A stretch of DNA of 35,314 bases from a virus, in the IMG/VR virus record IMGVR_UViG_3300020400_000017, positions 1 through 35,314 of that record; one strand, 5' to 3'. This document shows positions 25,795-30,387 of this stretch, piece by piece. Under the pieces are notes generated by a model. That model did no database searches. It had not been told where the DNA came from and saw only the letters and a list, made by a program, of their open reading frames with translations. Each line of letters begins with the position of its first letter. The first letter of the stretch is position 1. Made by a program: the position numbers and the translations under genes.

Positions 25795-25802
25795 TATTTA
25801 TA
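25795..25802 (-). promoter_or_regulatory. Late promoter for gp48, gp53 and the hub
   Basis: Minus-strand TATAAATAGT with ATG 25768 26 nt further on and AAAGAGAAA as a weak ribosome site. It overlaps the first base of the gp4 start codon and is interleaved with the plus-strand promoter. Confidence 0.7.
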
Positions 25803-26260
25803 TGAAAATGATGAAGAAACATAAGACATACAAAGGAAAATATACACCTAAGTTTCCTAAGAAATACAAAGGCAATTACAAGAATATTGTATATCGTTCA
25901 TTATGGGAAAGAAAGTGTATGGTATATTTTGATACTAATCCTAATATACTATCTTGGTCTAGTGAAGAATTAGTCATACCTTATTTTGATTCTGTAACTA
26001 AGACAAGGCGTAGATATTATCCTGATTTTCTAATTACTGTTATGAATAGTGATGGTGAAAAGAAAATACATCTAATAGAAGTTAAACCATCTAAACATCT
26101 TAAACCACCTACATCTACAAAAGGTAAAAGGCGTAGTACCTTATTACAAGAGGCACAAGCATACTATATGAACATGGATAAGTTTGCGGCTGCAGAGAAG
26201 TGGTGCAAAAAGAAAGATATCAAGTTTAGTATCTGGACTGAAAAAGAACTGCAATTTTAG
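25802..26260 (+). CDS. 4: Head completion protein gp4 (nuclease-like)
   Basis: T4 gp4 (gp50) is needed to complete filled heads before tail joining, and its fold resembles TnsA-type nucleases. The 152 residues begin with a basic KTYKGKYTPKFPKKYKGNYK, then YRSLWERKCMVYFDTNPNIL and WSSEELVIPYFD, almost the T4 wording. Nuclease-type residues are visible: Glu in LWERK, Asp in YYPDFLI and Glu-x-Lys in LIEVKPSK. It is the only plus-strand gene in the right-hand part of the window, with its own late promoter, and runs convergent to the tape measure gene. Confidence 0.9.
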   Translation: MKMMKKHKTYKGKYTPKFPKKYKGNYKNIVYRSLWERKCMVYFDTNPNILSWSSEELVIPYFDSVTKTRRRYYPDFLITVMNSDGEKKIHLIEVKPSKHLKPPTSTKGKRRSTLLQEAQAYYMNMDKFAAAEKWCKKKDIKFSIWTEKELQF

Positions 26261-26271
26261 GGGGTACTAGA

Positions 26272-26325
26272 GTATCACCGTGTGTTATAAACCGGGTGAT
26301 ACGGCGGCTATGGCGTCTTTTTTTT
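26272..26325 (+). terminator. Probable terminator after gp4
   Basis: Perfect 8-bp arms GTATCACC (26272-26279) and GGTGATAC (26295-26302) around a 15-nt loop, then a GC-rich spacer and a run of eight T (26318-26325). The T-run begins 15 nt after the stem, so it is not a textbook intrinsic terminator. It lies between convergent genes, where one is expected. Confidence 0.45.
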
Positions 26326-28237
26326 ACCGAGCGAGTGCAGGAGTTGAATAAGTATCAAAAAAATCATTAATAGGTTTAGAACCGAAATGATTAGATACTA
26401 CTGATGAACTTCTATTATCTGAAGTAACTGCTGTATTTACTGAAGGCATACTACCACCCGTAGAAGTCATACCTGATTGACTAGCATTCAACGCAGCTGT
26501 TCTACTTACATTTGATGCAGTCCCAGGATTTGCAACCACAGCCATCTCTCTAACAAAGTCTGCTGCCGTTCCTCTTAAATCTTTAAATGCAAGACCGAAA
26601 GCAGCCATCTTTACTGTTGTGCCTACGCCAGGTAATGAATCTTTAAATCCTTCCATACTCTCAGAGAAATCTTTTAATATTCTAGGGGCATCACTTTTGC
26701 CAAATGCTTTTATATCTTCATCTAATGTCTTTAAACCCTTACCAAACTTCTCTATACCTTCGCCTGCGGCCTTAATATTTTCACCATCTAACTCTTGTAA
26801 TTGATCTAAAGGACCACCACCGAAGAAACTACCTATTGCACCTAGTATACCACCAACAGCAAATGTTCCAAGTGCAGCAGATATCGCAACTATACCCGCA
26901 GCTGCATCAAATAAATCACCACCATCTAAGGCGGCTAGTCTCTCTACTGTATCAGCAATACTATTAAATATAGTGCTGACAATACCAGATATTGATTCAC
27001 CTACACTTTCAATGACACCGCCAATACTATCAAATATAGGTGGTATTCTTTCCATTGCACCAAGGAATGTTTCACCTAACACCTTCGAAATATCAACTAC
27101 TGCTTTAGCAAATATTTTAAGTGCTGGCGAGGCAATTTTTAAAGCCGCACCTATACCTATGATTGCTAATGTAAACGCACCTAATCCTATCAATGCAAGA
27201 GGATTTGCTAGTGTCATCACACTCATAGCAAGACCTCTTATTGCAGCACTCAATGCTGTTATACCAGCAGAAAGAGCAGCACCAGCAGCACCCATAAGAC
27301 CACTTAACATACCCATTATGCCACCTTTTTTCTCACCCTCTCCTGCCACAGGAGGCATGCCAGTATCATCATCACCAGGTTTTACATTTGCACCTTCAGT
27401 TGCTGATGAATCTTTACCCTCTAATGCCTCTGATATTTTTAGTAGGAATGATTGACCACTTTTATCAGTAAGACCTAAACCAAAAGCAAGTGTTCTTCTA
27501 ATTCTTGCTAACATGCCCACTGGTGGCATTAATAAATCTTTTGCTGTTAAAGATTGTTGATCATTTGACTCTGTAGGATCTGCTACAAAATCTGCTTTAG
27601 TTTTAGGTCTACTATCTTCGTAATCTGATTGTGTTTCTTCTAAATCTTGTCTGCCTGATACATACTGTTCTACTTTCTCAACACTATCATCAGTTAGACC
27701 ACCTATGCCTAATGCACCTTTTATCTTATCATTTATGCCATCGCCAAGTGAGTTAAAGTATGCCTCAAATGGTGCACCGCCAGGTAATTGTGCAAATACA
27801 TCACCTATCTTTGTGAATGGATTTAGTGTTTCTGTTAATGAATCTAAGAACGATTCATTTGCTGAACCAAATAGACCTTTACCTGCTTTCTTAACATTCT
27901 TTTCTGAGGTAGTGATAAGTCTTTTTAGATTAGCAACTTCATCTTTGCTCATCTTTTGATCATCTGACAAATTCTTTTGTGTCTGATCTATAATTTTTTT
28001 ATATTCTTTTAATCTTCTTGAGGCATCTTTTAATTGCTCAGGATCTGTTGCATCTTTAATAGCAGCAGCTTCAGTTGAAAGATCAGTTAATATTTGACCT
28101 GCAACGCCAGAAACATTTGGTTGTAATGCTTCAATTTCTGAAGCCATGATGCTAGAGGCAGTTCTTTTCTTTGCCCCAAAACCTCTAGTGCCTGTTGACT
28201 CTTGTATTGTTTTTAATGTTTCTGAAAAGTCTGCCAT
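26324..28237 (-). CDS. Tail tape measure protein (gp29-like)
   Basis: The tape measure sets tail length and is threaded through the tube. This 637-residue protein has a charged helical N-terminus (about 1-130, with DQTQKNLSDDQKMSKDEVAN), then a long Gly/Ala/Ile-rich hydrophobic central part (about 305-480: MLSGLMGAAGAALSAGITAL, IGLGAFTLAIIGIGAALKIA, GIVAISAALGTFAVGGILGA), characteristic of tape measures. T4 gp29 is 590 residues. It follows the tail chaperone genes and a small membrane protein, the usual order for tailed phages. Confidence 0.85.
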   Translation of the reverse strand: MADFSETLKTIQESTGTRGFGAKKRTASSIMASEIEALQPNVSGVAGQILTDLSTEAAAIKDATDPEQLKDASRRLKEYKKIIDQTQKNLSDDQKMSKDEVANLKRLITTSEKNVKKAGKGLFGSANESFLDSLTETLNPFTKIGDVFAQLPGGAPFEAYFNSLGDGINDKIKGALGIGGLTDDSVEKVEQYVSGRQDLEETQSDYEDSRPKTKADFVADPTESNDQQSLTAKDLLMPPVGMLARIRRTLAFGLGLTDKSGQSFLLKISEALEGKDSSATEGANVKPGDDDTGMPPVAGEGEKKGGIMGMLSGLMGAAGAALSAGITALSAAIRGLAMSVMTLANPLALIGLGAFTLAIIGIGAALKIASPALKIFAKAVVDISKVLGETFLGAMERIPPIFDSIGGVIESVGESISGIVSTIFNSIADTVERLAALDGGDLFDAAAGIVAISAALGTFAVGGILGAIGSFFGGGPLDQLQELDGENIKAAGEGIEKFGKGLKTLDEDIKAFGKSDAPRILKDFSESMEGFKDSLPGVGTTVKMAAFGLAFKDLRGTAADFVREMAVVANPGTASNVSRTAALNASQSGMTSTGGSMPSVNTAVTSDNRSSSVVSNHFGSKPINDFFDTYSTPALAR

Positions 28238-28536
28238 TATTTTTTACTTGTACCTGTGTATAAACCGAACCATGCAGCCCCAGCACCTACGACAATACTA
28301 ACTAACCCAGATTGTTCTAGTGTAGGATCTGCTATGTTCATGTACCATATTACTACTTTGTATAGTAAGTAAATGTATGTTGTTATGAATATTCTAGGAA
28401 AGATACGCCAAGAATCTATCGCCTTTGCAAGATCAATTAGATTTTGATATTTATTTTTACTAGAGTCAACAACATTAGTATCAACTTCTAGTTCTATATT
28501 GACCTTTTTTGTTTCTGTTTTACTTTCTTCGCTCAT
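28237..28536 (-). CDS. 99-residue membrane protein, possible holin
   Basis: An acidic, soluble N-terminus (about residues 1-45) is followed by two likely membrane spans (RIFITTYIYLLYKVVIWYM and GLVSIVVGAGAAWFGLYTG) and a short basic tail. It ends where the tape measure starts (1-nt overlap). Its own start overlaps the frameshift extension of the chaperone by 17 nt. A holin role would fit size and topology, but I see no diagnostic motif; a tail-associated membrane protein is equally possible. Confidence 0.5.
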   Translation of the reverse strand: MSEESKTETKKVNIELEVDTNVVDSSKNKYQNLIDLAKAIDSWRIFPRIFITTYIYLLYKVVIWYMNIADPTLEQSGLVSIVVGAGAAWFGLYTGTSKK

Positions 28537-28708
28537 TGTTTATTCTCTCCTTTTCATCTCTGAGATGATCTATAAGCATTTTAACATATATCTCCCTTTC
28601 CCAGGGCATCATGTTCTCAAGTTCACTTAATGAATACTTATGGTGTTGCATTAAGTTAAAGTTAGTAGTATAATGGTTCTCTAAGTTATCATGGGAAAGG
28701 GCTGTTAA
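28520..28708 (-). CDS. Frameshift extension of the tail chaperone (GT-like domain)
   Basis: In the -1 frame relative to the chaperone, 62 codons remain open from the slippery run to TAA at 28520-28522. The peptide shows LSHDNLENHYTTNFNLMQHH, then KYSLSELENMMPWEREIYVK and a charged helix (HLRDEKERINNERRK). This is the pattern I know from the T part of tail-assembly chaperones and similar T4-like small proteins. An internal ATG (28651) could also start a separate 43-residue protein, but no ribosome site is evident before it. Together with 28705-29397 it would make a 292-residue product. Confidence 0.7.
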   Translation of the reverse strand, partial: LTALSHDNLENHYTTNFNLMQHHKYSLSELENMMPWEREIYVKMLIDHLRDEKERINNERRK

Positions 28709-29397
28709 AAAAAACTTTGCATACCTTCAAGCGTTCTTTTTTCAGTCTTACCCGTCTTAGGTTGTTTATACTCTATCTCATACTTTAATCTAGGCATAGT
28801 TTCAAAAAATGTTCTAAACTGTTTAAAATGTTTATTAGATAAACTACCTAAAAACTCATCTAACTCAGCCTCGGTCATTTCTGTTCTTTCGTGTACAGTT
28901 TCGCCATCAACCACTTGCCATATGCAACTTTTTATTACTTTAAAGAAAGACTCAACTTCAGAATCTCCTGGTAAAGTAATATCAACTTTAGGATAATCCA
29001 TAATCACTTTTATTTTATCTGTTATGTCTATCCTATTAGTATGGTTTTCATCAACATGAACATTAACCTCTTCTAAAGGTATTTCTACCTCAGCAAATGT
29101 TTCTTTATCATCACATCTAACTCGTATTGTTGAAGTTTCACCAACTGACTTTGCTCTTATTCGTAAAAAGATATACTCTAAATCAAATAAAGGTGCAGTA
29201 TCAGGATCAAACTTCTCAAATGTACACGCCTTGATTAAACTTTTCAAAGCACTTATCATCTCACCATTGTCCTTAGACTCAAGTGCCATTAAAAGTACCT
29301 TTTCTTCTTTGACAAGAAATGGTCTAAACTTTATTTTCTCGTCTGTACTCGGTACTTCTAATTCGTAAGTCGGTACCTCGACCTTTGGTAATGCCAT
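28705..29397 (-). CDS. 26: Baseplate/tail assembly chaperone, gp26-like
   Basis: The 230-residue protein fits the T4_baseplate (gp26) family: a Pro-containing start (LPKVEVPTYELEVPSTDEKI), KFRPFLVKEEKVLLMALES, the FDLEYIFLRIRAKSVGE block, and the second half with DITDKIKVIMDYPKV and FFETMPRLKYEIEYKQP. In other tailed phages the gene in this position, just before the tape measure, is the G-type assembly chaperone. It ends AGT TTT TTT TAA, a slippery end for a -1 shift. An AAGGAG site precedes its ATG, and a late promoter lies 38 nt upstream. Confidence 0.75.
   Translation of the reverse strand: MALPKVEVPTYELEVPSTDEKIKFRPFLVKEEKVLLMALESKDNGEMISALKSLIKACTFEKFDPDTAPLFDLEYIFLRIRAKSVGETSTIRVRCDDKETFAEVEIPLEEVNVHVDENHTNRIDITDKIKVIMDYPKVDITLPGDSEVESFFKVIKSCIWQVVDGETVHERTEMTEAELDEFLGSLSNKHFKQFRTFFETMPRLKYEIEYKQPKTGKTEKRTLEGMQSFF
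28707..28714 (-). other. T8 slippery run for a -1 ribosomal frameshift
   Basis: Read on the minus strand, the last codons are AGT TTT TTT TAA. The run of eight T allows both tRNAs on TTT TTT to slip back one base and continue TTA ACA GCC into the extension, avoiding the stop. Confidence 0.65.
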
Positions 29398-29442: not shown

Positions 29443-30387
29443 CTAGAAATACGGAGGGAAAACTTTGCCTCCGAATACTCTTCCAGTAGGTAATCTGTTT
29501 TTTGCCTGATTAAATACTTCGTTTCCTGCCCTTCTTAACTCAGCAGGTAAGTATCTGAATAGACCTAATGGGCCCATTCCTTTTGTATCAGGCGTGACCA
29601 CACCAGTATTTGCGGTCATAAATGTATCTGCCTTTTCAACTTCATCAATATCAACCATATTGTGCCAGTATCTATACTCAAATGTAATACTAATTTTATG
29701 CACCTGATTTCTAGCGTCATAACTTAGTGCCTGAGCAGCTATTGTTTTAGGATATGCTTCAACTAATTTACAACCATACACAGCATTTTTTATTTCTTCT
29801 TTATGTGCATTGTCAAGTGTTGATCCCATTTCTTCATCAAAATCACTTAATTGATATATCTCAATCGGTGCTGTATATTCATCATAATAATTTAATTCGT
29901 ATGTTCTTTTATCAATAACTAAGTTCTGCCAAGTTTCAAAATAATGTTTCTCTCTCATAAATTTATCACAATAAAACTCAGCAGTTATCTCTGCAAAGTT
30001 TAGACCACTTGCAAAGTTTGTTTCAGGTCCGTGTATTCTATGAGGTTGTGTTTCTATTGTTCTACCTGGGAATTGTAAATCTGAACAATGAAATGCTACT
30101 TGAGCACCATATAACTTGTCTAAGTTTTGTGCATCTTTAGTGTCTTTAGCAACACCAGGTTGATCACTTGCACCACGAGGTAGTGTCATTATTAGAATAT
30201 ACTTTGTAGGTTTTGCAAACCCACCAGCTGCCTCTGTAAATGACCTAAATCTGTTTAGTGAAGTGTTAGGATTAGTTTTTCTTTTTAGTCTAGGGTCCTT
30301 GTCAATTCTATCGTAAGACCTATCTCTAGGTAAACCAATACGAATATCGTATCCTCCTATTTTTATGCCTTTACGAAATATTGCCAT
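29443..30387 (-). CDS. 54: Baseplate tail-tube initiator gp54-like
   Basis: The 314-residue protein shows the tail-tube fold signs: KPTKYILIMTLPRGASDQ, VAFHCSDLQFPGRTIETQPH, RIHGPE, then AEFYCDKFMREKHYFETWQN and VHKISITFEYRYWHNM. These features are shared by the tube protein gp19 and the tube initiator gp54; the length (T4 gp54: 320) favours gp54. It lies between the nuclease and the chaperone and ends in a hydrophobic and Pro-rich tail (LPTGRVFGGKVFPPYF). Confidence 0.75.
   Translation of the reverse strand: MAIFRKGIKIGGYDIRIGLPRDRSYDRIDKDPRLKRKTNPNTSLNRFRSFTEAAGGFAKPTKYILIMTLPRGASDQPGVAKDTKDAQNLDKLYGAQVAFHCSDLQFPGRTIETQPHRIHGPETNFASGLNFAEITAEFYCDKFMREKHYFETWQNLVIDKRTYELNYYDEYTAPIEIYQLSDFDEEMGSTLDNAHKEEIKNAVYGCKLVEAYPKTIAAQALSYDARNQVHKISITFEYRYWHNMVDIDEVEKADTFMTANTGVVTPDTKGMGPLGLFRYLPAELRRAGNEVFNQAKNRLPTGRVFGGKVFPPYF

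Follow-up and report, generated by a model that had tools for sequence, protein, structure and literature searches.

A putative tail assembly chaperone gene of a marine T4-like phage with a probable programmed −1 frameshift and a candidate RNA stimulator

The tail assembly chaperones of T4-like phages are reportedly the subject of a study by Vladimirov, Gautam and Davidson (Virology 2022, doi 10.1016/j.virol.2021.11.003), in which gp26 is said to be the TAC-N protein and gp51 the TAC-NC protein. Its abstract is said to propose that several T4-like groups use frameshifting and that the T4 group has separate genes. The genes of that system are the same as those of the locus described here. The lambda-type G/GT frameshift is conserved among long-tailed phages, with T4 listed as an exception in 2016 (PMC5009743). 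Excerpts of two other articles, both citing Vladimirov et al. 2022, refer to poly-T −1 frameshift signals in the TAC-N genes of T4-like phages (PMC12846349) and to a T4-like lineage in which the fused gene exists apart from the short one (PMC10885494). The original prediction for this locus had doubted that frameshifting is described for T4-like phages, a doubt that is out of date to judge from the excerpts of PMC12846349 and PMC10885494. Because poly-T slippage in T4-like phages has been reported, as the excerpt of PMC12846349 indicates, the chaperone frameshift here is of an already known kind. As in lambda gpG/gpGT, a short chaperone and a −1 product are encoded close to the tape measure gene, and the short gene carries the heptamer near its end (PMC5009743); unlike in lambda, the heptamer is T_TTT_TTN. 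In the Vandenendeviridae phage Adele, TAC-N likewise ends in a conserved −1 frameshift site with a GTTTTT motif, but this phage belongs to a different phage family, and the excerpt of the article describing it does not mention a downstream stem (PMC12846349).

The window, i.e., the whole stretch of DNA that was analysed, is a 35,314-base fragment of one uncultured virus, a marine T4-like phage. Its relevant features are as follows.

29443–30387, minus strand: tail tube-like gene, immediately 5′ of the chaperone gene (phrog_45, tail tube, E 3e-28)
28705–29397, minus strand: gp26-like gene, putative short chaperone TAC-N, 230 aa (PF12322, phrog_150, model match to 2OB9)
28708–28714, minus strand: slippery heptamer T_TTT_TTT, within the T8 run 28707–28714 (sequence; T6 invariant in 74 nonredundant relatives)
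28520–28708, minus strand: −1 frame extension, TAC-C or gp51-like domain, 62 codons plus TAA (phrog_634, E 3.5e-27; kept in 334 loci)
28237–28536, minus strand: 99-aa ORF separating the chaperone and tape measure genes, its start overlapping the last part of the extension (phrog_10198, unknown function, E 2.5e-24)
26324–28237, minus strand: tape-measure-like gene, 637 aa (phrog_1272, tail length tape measure, E 2.5e-7)

The gp26-like gene is preceded by the ribosome site AAGGAG and ends in ATG CAA AGT TTT TTT TAA, so that the 0-frame TAA (28705–28707) directly abuts the heptamer. A −1 slip within TTT TTT leads into 62 open codons and then a TAA at 28520–28522, giving a predicted long form of 292 aa versus 230 aa for the short form; the +1 frame past the T8 run is closed in the frame translation of the window site. 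Both the gene end on the T8 run and the 62-codon −1 frame, with the peptides quoted for it in the original prediction, are thus present at 28520–28714. The predicted tryptic peptide spanning the junction of the −1 product is TLEGMQSFFLTALSHDNLENHYTTNFNLMQHHK. Among 55 in-frame X_XXY_YYZ heptamers counted in the 29 longer ORFs of the window, the T8 heptamer alone combines a position at the end of a gene with a −1 frame open for more than 40 codons, barring one AAATTTG site; the 167 open −1 codons at that site seem to represent the neighbouring gene. A second 8-base T run (26318–26325) is found near the end of the tape-measure-like gene, where an in-frame T_TTT_TTT stands 11 codons before the stop and the −1 frame closes immediately.

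The chaperone locus sits between the tail tube gene and, past one small ORF, the tape-measure-like gene. The latter is assigned on one PHROG match and gene order, its place corresponding to that of the "putative tail tape measure" of HTVC008M. The chaperone gene had been placed just ahead of the tape measure; the tape measure does lie downstream, but the 99-aa ORF intervenes. ORFs of similar size occupy the same place in HTVC008M, Melnitz and Mosig. A gp4-like head closure gene (25802–26260, phrog_218) lies on the plus strand, opposite to its neighbours, and has a TnsA-like nuclease domain match (PF08722, E 1.3e-23).

A tblastn search with the 62 extension residues returned 575 phage records, mostly cyanophages, which together with the phrog_634 match places the extension beyond chance. 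The first relative set comprised 80 virus-contig relatives and four isolates, and the extension was in the −1 frame in all 84 of them as well as in the window. Further scans yielded 335 loci with both the gp26-like part and the extension, 334 of them in the −1 frame; the single in-frame match, in Aeromonas phage 44RR2.8t, is a T4-type fused gene 51. T_TTT_TTN was found at the junction in 333 of the 335 loci, as TTTTTTC (183), TTTTTTT (127), TTTTTTA (21) or TTTTTTG (2). The T run and the −1 frame, whose retention in relatives had been proposed as a check, are therefore conserved, and a programmed −1 frameshift in a T4-like tail chaperone, as originally predicted, is supported by these counts. 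The same layout was seen in HTVC008M, Sinorhizobium phage phiN3, C48C1, Vibrio QD01 and phi-Grn1, Stenotrophomonas Ps15, Agrobacterium OLIVR5, Rhizobium AF3, and Synechococcus MA10 and S-CREM1. In one virus contig (L012, about 2489–2496) a T-to-G change breaks the heptamer (AGT GTT TTC) and the extension is intact.

The six Ts were invariant in 74 of 74 nonredundant sequences, although these are related and nominal probabilities for T6 constancy overstate their independence. The first Phe codon at the site was TTT in all 74, versus 571 of 739 (77%) at the other Phe codons of these genes, and the codon ahead of the TTT TTT of the heptamer had T as its third base in every one. Variability by codon position followed the 0-frame pattern before the site and the −1-frame pattern after it. 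A similar −1 extension after gp26 occurs in the Ackermannviridae phages Kuja, rabagast and T751 (L094 3244, L095 3244, L098 3241). Despite this extension, a slippery T6 is absent from their junctions, which read CTT TTT CAA in Kuja and ATT TTC ATT in rabagast and T751.

Downstream of the heptamer, a candidate RNA stimulator was predicted in the window, with the following elements.

28702–28707, minus strand: spacer of 6 nt between heptamer and stem (sequence, fold)
28692–28701, minus strand: stem arm 1, CCCUUUCCCA (fold, pair probability 1.0, covariation)
28594–28603, minus strand: stem arm 2, UGGGAAAGGG, over the W-E-R-E codons (fold, pair probability 1.0, covariation)

The arms form a 10-bp long-range helix, arm 2 lying about 90 nt past arm 1, with a pair probability of 1.0. 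The long stem was seen in 140 nt folds, whereas folds of 77–107 nt leave out arm 2. Among 73 relatives, the arms of the same sequence had a mean energy of −15.9 kcal/mol compared with −12.7 for arms swapped between sequences (permutation sd 0.32). In 70 sequences, 83.6% of the cells paired, versus 41–58% when one side was slid by 1–3 columns, and the covariation score was 0.190 against 0.124 ± 0.009 after shuffling. Because the helix had first been seen in these same sequences, further tests were made with the 70 sequences and 116 held-out ones (186 in all). The top mutual-information pairs of the whole alignment (−50/−41) were produced by small indels in gp26, and mutual information was therefore confined to the gap-free downstream part. 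The top pair of 10,731 column pairs in the 70-sequence set was +13/+118, which are third codon positions in the helix, but in the 116 held-out sequences the two wobble pairs of the helix ranked only 28 and 272 of 10,731. Considering that the held-out pairs were not at the top, we keep the claim of a long-range partner to the nearer relatives of the window. When co-change was counted over 87 disjoint sister pairs from all sequences, the two pairs of the helix ranked 1 and 2 of 266 third–third pairs, and 15 double changes at these positions retained pairing.

Compared with synonymous codon shuffles, which keep the protein and the codon use, the downstream region had a folding z of −2.3 in the 70 sequences and −1.7 in the 116 held-out ones, and two upstream control segments gave −0.4 to −0.9. 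A helix of at least 6 bp starting at +10 to +14, i.e., 4–8 nt after the heptamer, was found in 115 of 186 sequences versus 32.0 ± 4.6 in synonymous shuffles, with a peak of starts at +11 to +13 (5–7 nt after the heptamer). The 3′ partner varies by lineage and can be local, middle or long range; the long-range stem was the predicted form in 44 of the 70 and 24 of the 116 sequences. From its covariation and spacing, the helix seems to be a frameshift stimulator whose start is fixed and whose partner changes. On balance we favour the view that marine Kyanoviridae-type T4-like phages carry a conserved stimulator whose 5′ arm is fixed 5–7 nt past the heptamer and whose 3′ partner moves between lineages (about 20–40, 60–70 or 90–100 nt off), held by compensatory synonymous changes in the extension coding sequence and setting the ratio of the two chaperone forms. 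No Rfam family reached the gathering score in the window, the stem region having a chance-level match (E 0.52). The literature searched does not mention the downstream stem, which does not show that it is unreported; a conserved RNA stem promoting slippage may be new.

The fusion could also arise if RNA polymerase slipped on the T8 run and made a mixed mRNA pool, the longer mRNAs being translated normally. A run of T8 is long enough for possible polymerase slippage, and runs of T7 or longer are present in 30 of the 84 relatives. However, the relatives most often have T6 and then C (183 of 333), a site that agrees with tandem tRNA slippage on T_TTT_TTC but is short for a polymerase to slip on. 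The T run keeps a fixed phase relative to the codons, and a stem at a fixed spacing of 5–7 nt suits a ribosome rather than a polymerase. This explanation is therefore improbable beside slippage of the ribosome.

The gp26-like gene matched the Pfam family PF12322 (T4_baseplate, E 3.8e-59) and the PHROG family phrog_150 ("baseplate hub", E 4.2e-63). A search of the extension against gp51, suggested with the original prediction, gave a match to phrog_634 (gp51, "baseplate hub assembly catalyst", E 3.5e-27). By hhalign, T4-type gp26 matched the window-type short form (E 1.3e-20), and the T4-type gp51 profile aligned with the fused product from one end to the other (E 1.2e-19, columns 6–251 of the gp51 profile). 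T4 gp51 is a single in-frame gene with a gp26-like part ahead of the extension domain. Since the gp51 profile aligns with the whole fused product, T4 gp51 appears to be the long form, fixed in a single gene. The short and fused forms are separate, divergent genes (26 and 51) in T4, whereas in the window the long form can be reached by frameshift only. The locus is very probably a G/GT-type chaperone pair.

These matches also bear on the reading of most GenBank records, in which the extension figures as an independent small gene (gp51) having a start of its own. Mosig, Melnitz, P-HM1, HTVC008M and others have a separate short CDS in their records, and in L083-type records and the isolate records L002, L003, L004 and L088 gp51 is annotated as a short CDS with an internal start. 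The conserved residues, however, begin directly past the heptamer (S-H at extension positions 5–6, N-F at 16–17), and the annotated gp51 starts fall within the conserved domain and omit conserved residues such as S-H-D and N-F. A Shine-Dalgarno-like word precedes the first ATG of the extension in 3 of 84 sequences, and none does in the window. The 0-frame T_TTT_TTN is retained at synonymous positions, and the gp26-like part of T4 gp51 likewise argues against a separate gene. The relatives were searched for a separate gene that has its own ribosome site and lacks the slippery run, and none was found. We consider this reading very unlikely, and because gp51 is annotated from an internal start, the frameshift product is missing from annotation and protein databases. 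That the frame break is a homopolymer sequencing or assembly error in one truly fused frame is barely credible, since one base lost from a T9 run would look identical but 334 independent loci, isolate genomes included, agree in phase and differ in the bases that follow T6.

An AlphaFold2 model of gp26, with window and virus-contig rows as its only input, had a mean pLDDT of 87. Residues 1–85 of the model resembled the HK97 tail assembly chaperone (PDB ID 2OB9; Z 7.7, rmsd 3.9 over 83 residues, 8% identity). The top three matches, 2OB9 and two further phage-type proteins near it, 3FGX and 3KLU, had Z scores of 7.0–7.7, with the next at 2.7, although a Z under 8 may mean a common arrangement only. 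Foldseek alone also placed 2OB9 first, but with an E of 0.89; a second look at the PDB revealed no other family above Z 2.7, and sequence searches against solved structures gave chance-like matches only. The C-terminal half of gp26 was without a clear structural match. The modelled HK97-like match agrees with a chaperone role, short of proof.

Taken from sequence comparison, the probability that the two chaperone forms arise by ribosomal −1 slippage on the T run, aided by the stem, is roughly 93%. Most ribosomes would stop at the TAA and release the short form of 230 aa (TAC-N). A few, their P and A sites occupied by TTT TTT, would slip by −1 on T_TTT_TTT, and the RNA stem beginning 6 nt downstream may pause the ribosome and aid the slip. 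Slippage and its rate are inferred; the slipped ribosomes would continue for 62 codons to produce the long form of 292 aa (TAC-NC). If the pair works as lambda gpG/gpGT does, short chaperones in large number and long ones in small number might then cover the tape measure protein and deliver tail tube subunits to it.

This reading amends several hundred T4-like phage records whose annotation lists gp51 as a separate gene in truncated form. A testable candidate stimulator with covariation support is a further gain, in a group of abundant marine phages where the ratio of the chaperone forms could be tuned and compared between lineages.
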